From the IMG/VR virus record IMGVR_UViG_3300044858_000695, positions 1 through 25,340 of that record: 25,340 nucleotides of DNA; one strand, 5' to 3'. The notes under the pieces were generated by a model that saw nothing but the letters and a program-made list of their open reading frames with translations, did no database searches and was not told the DNA's origin. This DNA comes from a virus. Below are positions 1,853 to 24,333 of this stretch, in pieces. The position numbers were made by a program, and so were the translations under genes. How positions within the stretch are numbered: position 1 is the first letter of the stretch; the number at the start of each line of letters is the position of its first letter.

Positions 1853-2419
1853 TTAAGCAAACTTAGTTTGCGATGCTAATACTGTAAATGTTGCAGATGC
1901 TGTCTTAATAATTGTAAATACATAAGCATCAATAGATGATGCGTTACCAGCAGCTACCGCTGTACCACCCTGCCACTTTGGAGTGACTGATGTTCCATCA
2001 ATCTGAATTGTGCTTGGGTAGTAAGCAGTTGCACCGTTGGTGTTAAGCCATACAAGTGTAAGTGTGTCTCCTACTGGCAGTGCTGTGTTCAGAGATACAG
2101 TGCTACTGTATCTAAAGTTAAGTGTGTGGTTAGCTGTTGCATTGGATGTGTAGTACCAGATCGATGCTGTACCAAATTCAAAGTTGATAGTTCCAGTTGC
2201 AGCAGAAGCCACAACATTTATATCTTCTTCGATTCCTCTGATAGTTGTATCAGCAAGTGTTCCACCTGCTGCACGAGCTAGAGGGAATCCACCTGCTGTG
2301 GATCCATCATGTACTACTACTGTGTCCTTATCAGTATCTACTGTCAATTCGCCCAGTAGCCCTGTAAAGGATGCGTGTTGTGCCGTAGTTCCTCTACGGC
2401 GTTGGAATGCGAATGGCAT
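1853..2419 (-). CDS. Fibre protein with Mtd-N-like amino-terminal domain
   Basis: 188 aa from ATG 2419. The start MPFAFQRRRGTTAQHAS followed by LLGELTVDTDKDTVVVHDGST is the classic 'RRGTxxxW...GELgvdtD...v.vhDG' pattern found at the head of many phage tail fibres and related to the major tropism determinant N-terminal domain. The remainder (INFEFGTASIWYYT, TLVWLNTNGATAYYP, IQIDGTSVTPKWQGG) is predicted beta-rich and ends in FTVLASQTKFA. A TTG five codons upstream would lengthen the protein, but the ATG forms a TAATG overlap with the preceding fibre gene, so I chose it. Likely part of the receptor-binding tip or a fibre collar; the domain match is from pattern recognition only. Confidence 0.75.
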   Translation of the reverse strand: MPFAFQRRRGTTAQHASFTGLLGELTVDTDKDTVVVHDGSTAGGFPLARAAGGTLADTTIRGIEEDINVVASAATGTINFEFGTASIWYYTSNATANHTLNFRYSSTVSLNTALPVGDTLTLVWLNTNGATAYYPSTIQIDGTSVTPKWQGGTAVAAGNASSIDAYVFTIIKTASATFTVLASQTKFA

Positions 2420-4038
2420 TAGATCGTTCCCCAATCTGATAAGGAAGCCCAGTTAGCTGAGGTTCCGTTGTTTGTTAAGAAATAACCACTTACACCAGAA
2501 GTTATAGTTGGTATATAACTTGCTGCCGTAGTGGCACTTGCTGCAGCACTAGATGCAGAAGTTGCTGCAGAAGACGCTGATGTCGCAGCCGAAGTCTGCG
2601 ATGTTAAAGCACTCGATGCTGATGTTGCAGCCGAGTTTGCGCTGGTTAATGCATTGCTTGCATTGACGCCAGATGATCCAGCTGATGTAGCAGCGGAAGA
2701 TGCTGACGTTGCTGCAGCTGATTGTGATGCAGCAGAACTAGTTGCACTAGTTGCTGCATCGGTGGCTGATACGCCAGCAGATCCAGCACTAGTAGCAGCA
2801 GATGATGCGCTAGTCGCAGCGGACGCTTGTGATGTTGCAGCACTAGAGGCAGATGTAGCAGCTTGGGCTGCAGATGTTACTGCGGTGGCTGCCGATGTAG
2901 TTGCTGTTGCTGCGGAAGCGGAAGCAGTTGATGCAGATGACCCAGCGGAAGTTGCAGAAGTTAATGCACTTGATGCACTGGTTGCTGCAGAGCTAGCCGA
3001 TGCGCTTGCATTAGCTTCAAGAGATGATAAAGAAATCCATGTTCCAGTTGAGTTGTCGGCAGATGTAATATCCCCCATGTCTCGAACAAGACCAGATGCA
3101 ACTTGACCAGCAACAGATGACGCAGACCCAGCAGCAGATGATGCTGATGTTCCTGCAGATGTTGCGCTAGTGGCTGCTGAGTTGGCTGATGTGAGAGCAG
3201 CCGATGCAGACGTTGCTGCACTGGTTGCGCTTGTCGCTGCAGATGTAGCAGACGTTGCAGCCGATGTTGCGAAAGTAGATGCACTAGATGCTGAAGTAGC
3301 TGCTGCTGTGGCAGAGGCTGCAGAAGATGTAGCACTGGTTGCTGCTGCGGTTGCACTGGCTGCTGCCGATGTTGCTGACGTGGCTGCAGCGGAGGATGCT
3401 GCAGATGCGTTGCTTGCAAAGGTAGATGCACTCGATGCCGAGGTAGCAGCGGAGGTTGCTGAAGTAGCAGCACTTGCTGCACTAGTTGCTGCAGCAGTTG
3501 CACTGCTTGCAGCAGCGGTTGCAGATCCTGCAATACCAGTTACGTATGCTACGTTTGCTGCGTCACCAGATGTTGTTGGTGTTGCTACATTTGTAATTCT
3601 GTAGTTGTTAGCATTGATGATTCCAGCAGCGGTGATGATTGCTGCAGATAAAGTCTTTGTTCCACTCAGGGTTTGTGCGCCACCTGTACCGACAACATCA
3701 CCAGTTACTCCGTGTACGTTTGTGGTTGTAACTTCGTGTTGGCGAGACTCGGTAAAGTCTCGAGCCGATACACCGTGTTCAACGTTAGCACCAAAGGCGT
3801 GTGCCTTAGCACCTGATGAGTCAATGTTACGAGTGATCTGGTAGGCAGAACCTACCAGACTGGTAACTTCAACTACTTCTTCATTAGCTGTATCCTTCTC
3901 AAGAATGAGTGTGTAGGGATACTGTGCTGGAAGATTGCTTGCAGCAGCAAGCGTAAGGCTTGTTGCTGACGAACTGATCGATGCAGCAAGGGTTGTCTTG
4001 GCTGCATTCGAACTATAGTAACGTGCTGGAGTTGTCAT
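2419..4038 (-). CDS. Long Ala/Ser/Thr-repeat tail fibre protein
   Basis: 539 aa. Residues 17-95 form a beta domain (SLTLAAASNLPAQYPYTLIL, EEVVEVTS, YQITRNID, AHAFGANVEHG) that recurs in the adaptor encoded just upstream. Residues 118-168 carry TLSGTKTLSAA and the common fibre motif RITNVATPTTSGDAANVAYV. From about 170 to 505 the chain is almost only Ala, Ser and Thr in register (AATSASSA-type units), broken once near 310-340 by GLVRDMGDITSADNSTGTW. The end, YFLTNNGTSANWASL, is a typical fibre C-terminal cap. Such repeats build long trimeric shafts. Likely role: host-contact fibre. Its stop overlaps the next ATG (TAATG). The repeat tract opens long false frames on the opposite strand. Confidence 0.85.
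   Translation of the reverse strand: MTTPARYYSSNAAKTTLAASISSSATSLTLAAASNLPAQYPYTLILEKDTANEEVVEVTSLVGSAYQITRNIDSSGAKAHAFGANVEHGVSARDFTESRQHEVTTTNVHGVTGDVVGTGGAQTLSGTKTLSAAIITAAGIINANNYRITNVATPTTSGDAANVAYVTGIAGSATAAASSATAAATSAASAATSATSAATSASSASTFASNASAASSAAATSATSAAASATAAATSATSSAASATAAATSASSASTFATSAATSATSAATSATSAATSASAALTSANSAATSATSAGTSASSAAGSASSVAGQVASGLVRDMGDITSADNSTGTWISLSSLEANASASASSAATSASSALTSATSAGSSASTASASAATATTSAATAVTSAAQAATSASSAATSQASAATSASSAATSAGSAGVSATDAATSATSSAASQSAAATSASSAATSAGSSGVNASNALTSANSAATSASSALTSQTSAATSASSAATSASSAAASATTAASYIPTITSGVSGYFLTNNGTSANWASLSDWGTI
2524..3531 (-). repeat. Degenerate Ala/Ser/Thr codon repeat tract in the fibre gene
   Basis: About 1 kb of degenerate short repeats, on the plus strand dominated by gttgctgcag, gatgttgcag and gcactagatg variants, which code for AATSASSA-like units on the minus strand. 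It is interrupted near 3010-3110 by the unique segment coding for the MGDITSADNSTG region. Such tracts are prone to length change by recombination or slippage. Confidence 0.85.
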
Positions 4039-22715: not shown

Positions 22716-22920
22716 TAGAAGGCTCAATAAGTATTTCGCCTTATACTTATATAGGGGTCTAGAGCGTCGGCGTGTTTCAAGGGCATTTGGTAATTATTTT
22801 TTATTTATTGGTAAAAGTCCTGGTCAGCCTGGTTTTCTGGTGAAAATTATTTAGCTGATAGTGGGGGGTGGAGGGGGGGCGGTGCTAAACATCAGGGGGG
22901 TCGGCAAGGGTCGCGGACAC

Positions 22921-22944
22921 AAAAAAAGGGGCAGAGGTTGCCCC
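22921..22944 (-). terminator. Intrinsic terminator (distal of two)
   Basis: On the minus strand GGGGCA pairs with TGCCCC around ACCTC and is followed at once by seven T residues; an alternative 7-bp pairing with the next C-run is possible. This is a textbook rho-independent signal for transcripts coming from the 90-aa gene. Confidence 0.82.
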
Positions 22945-22976
22945 CTGCCCCCCAGAAAAACACGCTCAGATTTGAC

Positions 22977-23010
22977 AAAACCCCCCACCCTGTGGTACGC
23001 GGGCGGGGGG
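22977..23010 (-). terminator. Intrinsic terminator (proximal of two)
   Basis: On the minus strand CCCCCCGCCC pairs with GGGTGGGGGG over 10 bp around a 10-nt loop, followed by TTTTGTC. One position is a G-U pair only in the minus-strand RNA and an A-C mismatch in the plus-strand RNA, which supports the minus direction. Confidence 0.78.
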
Positions 23011-23033: not shown

Positions 23034-23111
23034 CTAACCCTCGCATTCATCTGCGTCGCTGGGGCACGTGCTCCCCCAGAAGCAAGGGCAATCCTCGCTT
23101 GAGTAACTCAC
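23034..23111 (-). CDS. Possible 25-aa Cys-rich mini-protein
   Basis: GTG at 23111-23109 overlaps the TGA of the 90-aa gene (GTGA); the frame ends at TAG 23036-23034, inside a GAGGG-CTAA-CCCTC hairpin. The predicted peptide has Cys at 8, 10, 16 and 23, including DCPCFWG and STCPSDADEC, with an acidic C terminus. The ribosome site is weak (GAGAG about 10 nt upstream). The frame is short enough to occur by chance; the stop/start overlap and the Cys spacing are what make it worth listing. Confidence 0.33.
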   Translation of the reverse strand: MSYSSEDCPCFWGSTCPSDADECEG

Positions 23112-23380
23112 GCGCTCACTCTCTTCATTATTACGCGGAAGTTATCGCCTACGATACGTAACTCCCTCGCGTTACGCACCTCCGCTATGTCATACACGAT
23201 ACCTATGCGCCCCTTGCCTATGTGTACAAGGTCGCCTAACTCTGCATACGCGAGGGGAACCAATTCGAAATCAGGGATGTGATTCAGGCTTGGAACTCCG
23301 TATTCCTTGCGTACCTCCAGCACCTCCGCCTTGAGGTCTGTGAGTAGGTCATTGTGTGTCCACGCTGTGATTGTGCTCAT
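23108..23380 (-). CDS. 90-aa hypothetical protein with SH3/KOW-like C-terminal half
   Basis: Start ATG 23380 has GAAAGG 7 nt upstream and lies about 44 nt after the predicted transcription start; the longer frame starting at 23440 begins inside the promoter and is rejected. The N-terminal part is helical (NDLLTDLKAEVLEVRKEYGV). The C-terminal half alternates short strands (ELGDLVHIGKGRIGIVYDIA, ELRIVGDNFRVIMKRV), resembling a small SH3-like or KOW barrel. It is the only minus-strand gene in the control region, with its own promoter and double terminator, so it is a stand-alone unit and may be regulatory. Function unknown. Confidence 0.72.
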   Translation of the reverse strand: MSTITAWTHNDLLTDLKAEVLEVRKEYGVPSLNHIPDFELVPLAYAELGDLVHIGKGRIGIVYDIAEVRNARELRIVGDNFRVIMKRVSA

Positions 23381-23430
23381 TGTGTTGCCTTTCGTGTTTG
23401 ATGCTGGAAGACCACCTCCCAACGACAAAC

Positions 23431-23459
23431 ATTCTCTCACACCTCGAGCCGAATGTCAA
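23431..23459 (-). promoter_or_regulatory. Sigma-70-type promoter for the 90-aa gene
   Basis: TTGACA (23459-23454) is a perfect -35 hexamer, the spacer is 17 nt and GAGAAT (23436-23431) is a 4-of-6 -10 hexamer. Transcription would start near 23424, giving a leader of about 44 nt before ATG 23380. Confidence 0.72.
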
Positions 23460-23503
23460 ATCTCAAGCGTAAATCCTCGGTGTGTTGGGTCGTTGCGTGT
23501 CCT

Positions 23504-23541
23504 GTGATGTGACGTGATGTGTGTCTATGCGCCGTGATGCA
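23504..23541 (+). repeat. Three GTGATG direct repeats in helical phase
   Basis: GTGATGTG at 23504 and 23514 and GTGATGCA at 23534 start exactly 10 and 20 bp apart, so they face the same side of the helix. This is an arrangement of regulator-binding sites or small iterons. Confidence 0.55.
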
Positions 23542-23549
23542 GGCGCATA
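23526..23549. repeat. 8-bp inverted repeat with 8-nt spacer
   Basis: TATGCGCC and GGCGCATA are perfect inverted copies flanking the third GTGATG unit. Either an operator half-site pair or an RNA hairpin; no U-run follows on either strand. Confidence 0.55.
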
Positions 23550-23600
23550 CCCCTGTTCGCGCTCATAGCGTGAGGCTAAGTGAAAGGTTCTAGATGCGAT

Positions 23601-23614
23601 CACACACGTGTGTG
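23601..23614. repeat. Perfect 14-bp palindrome CACACACGTGTGTG
   Basis: Self-complementary with no spacer, so it suits a dimeric DNA-binding protein better than an RNA hairpin. It lies 90 bp upstream of the first plus-strand gene. Confidence 0.55.
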
Positions 23615-23627
23615 CCTGTCTTTTCTT

Positions 23628-23681
23628 GATAGCAAAGCAAAGCTTTGCTTGATAAAGGGGGTCGAATCAAATCGGTTCGGC
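23628..23681 (+). promoter_or_regulatory. Two-stem leader element, copy A
   Basis: Stem 1 is AGCAAAG/CTTTGCT (23631-23649, loop CAAAG), preceded by GAT. The linker contains ATAAAGGGGG (23652-23661). Stem 2 is GTCGAATC/GGTTCGGC (23661-23681, 8 bp with two G-U pairs) around the loop AAATC. The element ends 22 nt before ATG 23704, whose ribosome site (CGAAAGGA) lies outside. Copy B has the same order, linker and loop but different stem bases that still pair. I read it as an RNA leader; a promoter reading with TTGATA/GATAAA is the main alternative. Confidence 0.62.
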
Positions 23682-23703
23682 AGTTGAACGAAAGGATTTA
23701 CCA

Positions 23704-23949
23704 ATGAGAACAGTTGAAACCAAGACACTGACCGCCGTCGTAAAGAACGGAGTCGTTCACGTGTCGAAGCCAGATGATAAGCGCATCTTCGCAAAGGTGC
23801 GAATCACCACTAACACAGCCAAATCTTCGAAGAAGATTGTGGCAATCCTTGATTCCTTCAAGGCATACCCGAACTTTACCACAGTTCTGGCTGAAATCCA
23901 AAAGGTAGAACCAAACGCCTATCTCACACTGAAAGGAGGTCGCGCCTGA
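23704..23949 (+). CDS. 81-aa hypothetical early protein
   Basis: ATG 23704 with AAAGGA at 7-nt spacing. It reads MRTVETKTLTAVVKNGVVHV, SKPDDKRIFAKVRITTN, then SSKKIVAILDSFKAYPNFTT and AEIQKVEPNAYLTLKGGRA. Basic, mixed alpha/beta, 81 residues, no family recognised. The final codons (AAAGGAGGT) double as the ribosome site of the next gene, and its TGA overlaps that gene's ATG. First gene of the plus-strand unit and preceded by leader copy A, so probably early; role unknown. Confidence 0.75.
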   Translation: MRTVETKTLTAVVKNGVVHVSKPDDKRIFAKVRITTNTAKSSKKIVAILDSFKAYPNFTTVLAEIQKVEPNAYLTLKGGRA

Positions 23950-24062
23950 TGTATTGGGGAGACTATGTAGCAGTAGCAATCGCACTATTCACAAGCGGAT
24001 TCACGCTTGGTCTGTTCGTCGCACGTCGTGCCGTCCGCGAATGGCTCGCACGTCAAAGATAG
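23949..24062 (+). CDS. 37-aa single-span membrane protein
   Basis: ATG 23949 overlaps the previous TGA (TGATG) and has a perfect AAAGGAGGT 8 nt upstream, so the short frame is very likely translated. The product starts MYWGDYVAVAIALFTSGFTL, with one hydrophobic segment at about 7-24, then a basic end (ARRAVREWLARQR) expected to stay in the cytoplasm. Small membrane proteins in early phage operons can be inhibitors, exclusion or holin-like factors, but nothing here selects among them. Its stop lies in the upstream flank of leader copy B. Confidence 0.75.
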   Translation: MYWGDYVAVAIALFTSGFTLGLFVARRAVREWLARQR

Positions 24063-24115
24063 CACATCTTTAGATGTGCTTATAAAGGGGGGACGGCAAA
24101 TCGCTGTCCCCTCTT
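24058..24115 (+). promoter_or_regulatory. Two-stem leader element, copy B
   Basis: After GAT, stem 1 is AGCACATC/GATGTGCT (24061-24080, loop TTTA). The linker reads ATAAAGGGGGG (24082-24092). Stem 2 core is GGGGACGGC/GCTGTCCCC (24089-24111, one G-U) with loop AAATC, and can extend to 13 bp (24085-24115). It ends 23-27 nt before ATG 24139, whose ribosome site CGAAAGGAG lies outside. Shared with copy A: GATAGCA, TGCTT, ATAAAGGGGG, AAATCG and CGAAAGGA; the stem bases differ but pair. Confidence 0.62.
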
Positions 24116-24138
24116 CACCAATCGAAAGGAGCAACACA

Positions 24139-24333
24139 ATGGACTACAAATTGCAGTTGAACTGGCAGGAAGACGAGAACGCCCCTCGCGGTACAAGATA
24201 CTACGTCGACATTGAGAAGAATGCCGACATACAAAAGCCAGAACTTTATCTGGCTGTGTCAACAGAAGGATACACGTGGCAAGAAGCAATGGCAAATGCC
24301 ATTGAGAAACTACAAGAGATAGGGGAAATCTAA
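24139..24333 (+). CDS. 64-aa hypothetical protein
   Basis: ATG 24139 follows GAAAGGAG at 7-nt spacing; an upstream in-frame ATG at 24007 falls inside the previous gene and leader element B and is rejected. Pattern: MDYKLQLNWQEDENAPRG, YYVDIEKNADIQKPELYLAV, then helix GYTWQEAMANAIEKLQEIGE. A compact beta-beta-alpha layout with an acidic bias, reminiscent of HicB-like or other small alpha/beta folds, but not assignable. It ends next to the following ATG (TAAATG), so the two are co-translated. Preceded by leader copy B. Confidence 0.74.
   Translation: MDYKLQLNWQEDENAPRGTRYYVDIEKNADIQKPELYLAVSTEGYTWQEAMANAIEKLQEIGEI

Follow-up and report, generated by a model that had tools for sequence, protein, structure and literature searches.

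Promoters that depend on the structure of the DNA are known mainly from N4-type phages, where they are read by a special virion polymerase. In supercoiled DNA, the hairpin of an N4 promoter is extruded, and initiation requires it. In actinophages, the ESAS of Cluster K mycobacteriophages are intergenic repeats that stand before a subset of non-structural genes, and their inverted repeat is tied to a putative promoter and to a start-site sequence (PMC3203893, PMC11373665). The accessible part of a report on Microbacterium phages of Cluster EG describes 18-bp inverted repeats that lie 14-22 bp upstream of the start codons of right-arm genes (PMC7302621). Here we describe an element from the early operon of a widespread family of uncultured phages. 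We read its unit as GATA, a hairpin of 7-8 bp with a loop of 3-4 nt (hairpin 1), an AT-rich box of 7-8 nt, and usually a few G's. A further hairpin (hairpin 2) often follows.

The window and its phage family

The window, by which we mean the whole stretch of DNA that was analysed, is a 25,340-bp virus fragment (IMG/VR record IMGVR_UViG_3300044858_000695). Its minus strand carries the terminase, the portal, the capsid, and a 1678-aa virion protein, and its right end is the start of a plus-strand early operon. The minus strand also has a repetitive 539-aa ORF (2419-4038) that is rich in Ala, Ser, and Thr, has 21-nt periodic repeats, and probably encodes a fibre-like protein. From the kind of phages that these are, we infer a freshwater origin. 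The host is probably an actinobacterium, because the terminase has relatives in cultured phages such as the Streptomyces phages of the Manuel group (Beephvirinae) and because the homologues of GP88 of a relative are almost exclusively in Mycobacterium and Streptomyces phages.

A search of species genomes with the terminase found no host or prophage. The region that carries the element was not found in any cultured phage, and when we inspected Streptomyces phage Manuel and ct2KA10, which are the closest relatives in culture, for hairpins, we saw nothing alike. Manuel has a similar set of replication genes, including a sigma factor, and is without such a hairpin. One relative with a genome of 41 kb encodes a proteasome/HslV-like peptidase (L143:4379-4936), which is unusual for a phage of this size. 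We could not show that the element lies at a physical end of the genome, as the ends of one contig (G001) repeat ~1 kb.

Two copies in the window

The first-pass annotation had claimed two copies of a two-stem RNA leader, and both are present, on the plus strand and 430 bp apart (Table 1). In copy 1, hairpin 1 does pair, but as a stem of 8 bp around an AAA triloop, which is a better reading than 7 bp with a CAAAG loop. The other details held up: the loop of hairpin 2 is identical (AAATC) in the two copies, and hairpin 2 ends 22 nt (copy 1) or 27 nt (copy 2) before the start codon, just as described. The linker sequence occurs within the window only at these two copies. If folded as single strands, both copies were more stable than dinucleotide shuffles (z = -2.5 for copy 1 and -6.9 for copy 2). 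In the RNA minimum-energy fold of copy 1, the bases of hairpin 2 pair with sequence further downstream instead, which marks this hairpin as weak in copy 1. The 37-codon ORF between the first gene and copy 2 encodes a hydrophobic stretch (MYWGDYVAVAIALFTSGFTLGLFV...) and ends inside the second element.

Table 1. Features of the two copies of the element and of the adjacent genes (positions are in the window)
Feature	Position	Strand	Basis
Copy 1, GATA at the foot of hairpin 1 (invariant)	23628..23631	+	sequence
Copy 1, hairpin 1 (A-GCAAAGC / AAA / GCTTTGC-T; 8 bp)	23631..23649	+	sequence, folding, covariation
Copy 1, AT box (TTGATAAA)	23649..23656	+	sequence, element statistics
Copy 1, G-run (G5), putative transcription start	23657-23661	+	start predicted
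Copy 1, hairpin 2 (GTCGAATC / AAATC / GGTTCGGC; two U-G pairs)	23661..23681	+	sequence
Copy 1, ribosome-binding site (GAAAGG)	23690..23695	+	sequence
First gene of the early operon (81 aa, MRTVETKTL..., ATG at 23704; no family match)	23704..23949	+	
37-codon ORF (TAG stop overlaps the GATA of copy 2)	23949..24062	+	read from sequence
Copy 2, GATA (invariant)	24058..24061	+	sequence, pattern searches, element statistics
Copy 2, hairpin 1 (A-GCACATC / TTTA / GATGTGC-T; 8 bp, loop TTTA)	24061..24080	+	sequence, folding, covariation
Copy 2, AT box (TTATAAA)	24080..24086	+	sequence, element statistics
Copy 2, G-run (G6), putative transcription start	24087-24092	+	start predicted
Copy 2, hairpin 2 (GGGGACGGC / AAATC / GCTGTCCCC)	24089..24111	+	sequence, folding, covariation
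Copy 2, ribosome-binding site (GAAAGGA)	24124..24130	+	sequence
Gene downstream of copy 2 (64 aa, ATG at 24139; no family match)	24139..24333	+	

Three readings were rejected. A riboswitch or other known RNA is not indicated: neither copy matched an Rfam family at the gathering score, and only chance-level matches were found elsewhere in the region. An intrinsic terminator does not fit, as the stems are AT-rich and hairpin 1 is not followed by a U-run. Nor does a programmed frameshift at AAAGGGG, as there are stops just upstream (such as the TAG at 24060-24062) and many copies lack the G-run.

Occurrence and placement in related phages

Relatives were collected by protein search and with a DNA pattern in which the variable stem positions were left free. 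The matches to this pattern in family members were paired at all inner positions, while chance matches in coding DNA were not. Our element finder allowed G-U pairs and one mismatch, and a later, wider finder dropped the requirement for GGG. The later searches required GATA; earlier searches without this requirement still found GATA in the family's copies of copies 1 and 2. The collected set comprises 126 distinct elements, with 35 distinct hairpin-1 sequences (stem-loops) and 240 base-pair cells.

All 48 of the contigs that reach at least 1.6 kb beyond the terminase on the early side contain the element, and each has one ~0.6-1.2 kb from the terminase start, on that side. Most of these contigs have one to three further elements along the early operon, which makes one to four per genome; a few extra listed matches fall inside genes. 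The window has two elements, and a contig that matches its proteins (L057) has a third one ~3.1 kb further along, past the window's end. The distance from the element to the start codon has a median of 47 nt and a range of 13-61 nt; for this counted set, the search required a single orientation and a start codon preceded by a ribosome site, and the list without the condition adds just a few look-alikes in coding regions. Several relatives also have a conserved palindrome with GATA (GATAACATCTTCAAGAAGATGT; L006:5545, L007:9478, and others) that mimics the element. It apparently lies inside a coding region and is probably a coincidence.

Hairpin 1 is conserved as a structure

Although the finder tolerated them, there were no mismatches and no G-U pairs in the 240 pair cells of hairpin 1. 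Three of the seven inner pairs are fixed (C-G, A-T, and A-T at positions 3, 4, and 6) and the other four vary, and all are 100% paired: position 2 is A-T or G-C, position 8 has three types of pairs, and positions 5 and 7 each have all four Watson-Crick types. Across the 20 distinct triloop forms, the covariation score was 0.561, versus a mean of 0.150 for shuffled sequences; none of 500 shuffles and no slid control reached the observed value. In these forms, 30 cells were changed on both sides and none on one side alone. On the terminase tree, copy 1 underwent at least 28 changes of pair type, all of them compensated (recombination could inflate this count). These results support selection of hairpin 1 for its structure. 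The first-pass annotation had argued from two copies that structure rather than sequence is selected, and the homologues extend this far beyond two copies, with no unpaired stem among the 35 distinct sequences. It had also allowed for G-U pairs in both stems, and this part is correct for hairpin 2 only.

The half-sites C-A.A / T.TG are invariant across copies. The loops are AAA, GAA, TTTA, GTA, TTC, ATA, CAAG, TAAA, or AGA, so that both orientations occur, and two pairs of loops (GAA/TTC and TTTA/TAAA) are reverse complements. Hairpin 1 also varies in length, with 6 or 7 inner base pairs and a loop of 3 or 4 nt. As a result, the central gap between the half-sites varies from 5 to 8 bp and the distance from GATA to the AT box changes by several bp, with no compensation elsewhere, yet the box keeps its place next to the right arm. 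Such shifts are compatible with a folded hairpin, but they would not be tolerated if the sequence were bound by a rigid dimer on B-DNA or read as a -35/-10 pair.

The AT box and hairpin 2

The AT box is 7-8 nt long, always starts at the same distance past the right arm, and is usually followed by G's. Positions +1 to +7 are 83-99% A/T, with T at +2 in 94% of elements and A at +7 in 84%; because the finder required at least 5 of 7 A/T in the tail, the A/T level is partly built in, which does not apply to the sharp limits or to the preference for T and A. A/T content falls to 11% at +11, with a sharp rise in G after the box. This profile is like that of a melting box plus an initiating G, although a classical -10 box ends in T and this one ends in A.

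Hairpin 2 behaves differently from hairpin 1. It is RNA-like: 83 of its 414 pairs (20%) are G-U, its sequence is variable, and unrelated replacement stems occur (such as GCTGGAC/GTTCAGC). Its covariation is modest, as the observed value was reached by 38 of 500 shuffles in one subset and 188 of 500 in another. Covarying helices with G-U pairs, which are a feature of structured RNA leaders, are thus weak in hairpin 2, whereas hairpin 1 covaries without G-U. Furthermore, hairpin 2 is absent from 14 distinct leaders, and there the AT box is followed by a short leader rich in CAA. Since hairpin 1 and the AT box are always kept and hairpin 2 is optional, the repeated unit is not a single two-stem RNA leader. 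The G-U content and the optional presence of hairpin 2 are expected if just this hairpin is always transcribed.

Promoters and polymerases

Upstream of copy 1, the best rightward score in a scan for SigA-like promoters averages no better than for shuffled sequences. Three relatives (L004, L077, and L078) have TTGACT-16-TATGAT upstream of copy 1, from which hairpin 1 would be transcribed. The element's own match to SigA (TTGATA-16-TTTGAT) is fair in most of clade A, with a score of 9.3, but scores only 2-4 in clade B.

Other signals lie around the start of the early operon. In the window, a good SigA-type promoter on the minus strand (23436-23464, TTGACA-17-GAGAAT) points left, at the small ORF at 23108-23440 and the terminase, and similar leftward promoters recur in several relatives. 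The sequence just upstream of copy 1 (~23480-23620) is non-coding and hypervariable among relatives, with TGTCATG-like repeats and modules like GTATTGGCTANTNGCAG; these repeats could be iterons or operators. Another intergenic region (22860-23000) is rich in runs of G or C and contains GGGGCAGAGGTTGCCCC and other inverted repeats, which are likely to be terminators between the divergent operons.

We also looked for a polymerase of the T7/N4 type. A search for PF00940 (run without a positive control) gave no match, and the ORF lists of two relatives (G004 and G010) contained no candidate besides a virion protein of ~1650 aa. The 1678-aa virion protein of the window had no match to PDB in a profile search and no conserved HD[SA] motif, and its predicted structure is mostly helical and of low confidence (pLDDT 57, pTM 0.27). 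None of these results supports a phage polymerase of this type, and this is negative evidence only. A sigma-like protein that is encoded by a relative (Sigma70_r4, E 1.6e-7) is a candidate factor for reading the element. We know of no host polymerase that uses hairpin promoters. An N4 hairpin that is inserted between the -35 and -10 boxes turns a host promoter off (PMC4496689).

Possible explanations

We give about an even chance to the element being promoter-like, with hairpin 1 acting in DNA. We prefer this reading because the length shifts are uncompensated and because there is no consistent rightward SigA promoter upstream of copy 1. Hairpin 1 would be read as a fold, at the DNA level. Negative supercoiling or strand opening, aided by the AT box and GATA, would extrude it; an RNA polymerase, which is probably that of the host together with a phage factor, would open the AT box; and transcription would begin at or near the G-run. 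If hairpin 2 is present, the RNA would carry it at its extreme 5' end, and this hairpin would shield the message or adjust its translation; leaders without it would be short, unstructured, and rich in CAA. That the extruded hairpin is required is a more tentative proposal, to which we give well under an even chance. We are somewhat more doubtful of the fullest version, a class of promoter in phages without their own single-subunit RNA polymerase. There, an extruded DNA hairpin of nearly free sequence, in supercoiled DNA, would be the recognition signal for the host polymerase and a phage factor, or would switch early genes in response to supercoiling, and a second hairpin, at the RNA level, would then cap the early transcript.

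Covariation is the classical sign of RNA structure, and the main rival is an RNA leader or an intercistronic processing site. Transcription would start upstream, hairpin 1 would fold in the RNA, and a nuclease would cut the AU-rich linker, so that hairpin 1 guards the 3' end of the upstream RNA and hairpin 2 the 5' end of the downstream RNA; or else a phage protein would bind the hairpin. We consider this possible but improbable. It would account for the covariation of hairpin 1, the AU-rich linker with its RNA-like hairpin 2, the SigA-like promoter ~50 nt upstream of copy 1 in some relatives, and the internal copies that often start at or just after a stop codon (a stop triplet is at or just upstream of the element's start in 52 of 122 contexts). 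Against it, hairpin 1 has no G-U pair in any of its cells when hairpin 2 has them in a fifth of its pairs, copy 1 has no upstream gene on the same strand, and the loops vary freely, up to the reverse complement. Also, the position of the box is constant and its limits are sharp, and the linker shows no conservation as an RNA motif. Of the roles that were first suggested for the element, a structured promoter start region fits better than a ligand sensor or a translational operator, given the lack of G-U pairs, the fixed box, and the lack of a consistent upstream promoter; a role in RNA is compatible with the data as well. The computed loop energies of DNA and RNA do not discriminate between the two levels.

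Strict Watson-Crick pairing alone is no proof of a function in DNA, as both the absence of G-U pairs and the inverted loops are also the footprint of template switching. Template switching during DNA replication can create and maintain perfect hairpins, including those of RNAs (PMC8794818), and it may also keep the pairing of hairpin 1 perfect. The element might also be a double-stranded operator, in which a dimeric phage regulator binds the palindrome RCANA...TNTGY beside an AT-rich -10 and template switching keeps the arms matched. The invariant half-sites and the reverse-complementary loops (PMC8794818) point this way, and inverted repeats beside promoters are known in actinophages (PMC11373665, and the accessible part of PMC7302621). 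We think that an operator is unlikely: the variable spacing of the half-sites does not suit a rigid dimer, the variable positions are complementary in every copy, and two copies of one genome often differ (GCAAAGC and GCACATC in the window), with little linkage between the stem combinations of copies 1 and 2 across genomes. It is very improbable that the element is a single-stranded DNA hairpin for replication, such as a loading site for primase or helicase. The relatives do encode a DnaB-like helicase and a split DnaG-type primase, and a hairpin with an AT-rich stretch resembles such loading sites; but a genome can have as many as four copies, every one of them in the early operon, and the counted copies all have one orientation and, as the search required, stand 13-61 nt ahead of a start codon that has a ribosome site.

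Significance and comparison with known systems

If the element is a promoter in a widespread family of uncultured phages that lack a special virion polymerase, then folded DNA might be a general control signal. Alternatively, it would be an unusually clean case of RNA structure that is kept by template switching. The many natural double changes make a reporter test directly possible, and the early operon of these uncultured phages can be located by means of the repeat.

The element is not a member of the ESAS or of the N4 hairpin promoters. Its likeness to ESAS is in position, and not in sequence or in the form of the repeat. The arms of ESAS are 15-17 bp, imperfect, have a consensus within each subcluster, and are separated by 4-14 bp, whereas those of hairpin 1 are 7-8 bp, always perfect, and variable, with loops of 3-4 nt. 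ESAS contain SigA -35 and -10 boxes with a spacing of 17-18 bp and, as imperfect 17-bp repeats around a spacer of 4-13 bp, sit upstream of GGGATAGGAGCCC (PMC3203893, PMC11373665); our element has no consistent SigA pair and sits upstream of ordinary GAAAGGAG-type ribosome sites. The repeat of the Cluster EG phages (GATCAACCNNGGTTGATC) is fixed across three genomes and has a 2-bp centre, and the accessible part of that report does not describe covariation or an AT box (PMC7302621).

The N4 promoters are read by a giant T7-type virion RNA polymerase, and we found no vRNAP-like protein in our phages (which is negative evidence only). In N4, the polymerase reads purines in the loop through conserved contacts on the template strand, and the sequence is conserved from -17 to +1 (PMC4496689); here, the loops flip orientation, the length of the stem varies, and an AT box follows. 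Nevertheless, both are small DNA hairpins with short loops before early genes, and in both, some bases of the stem are fixed while others are free if the hairpin is kept (PMC4496689). By this analogy, the element appears to work most like the early promoters of N4.
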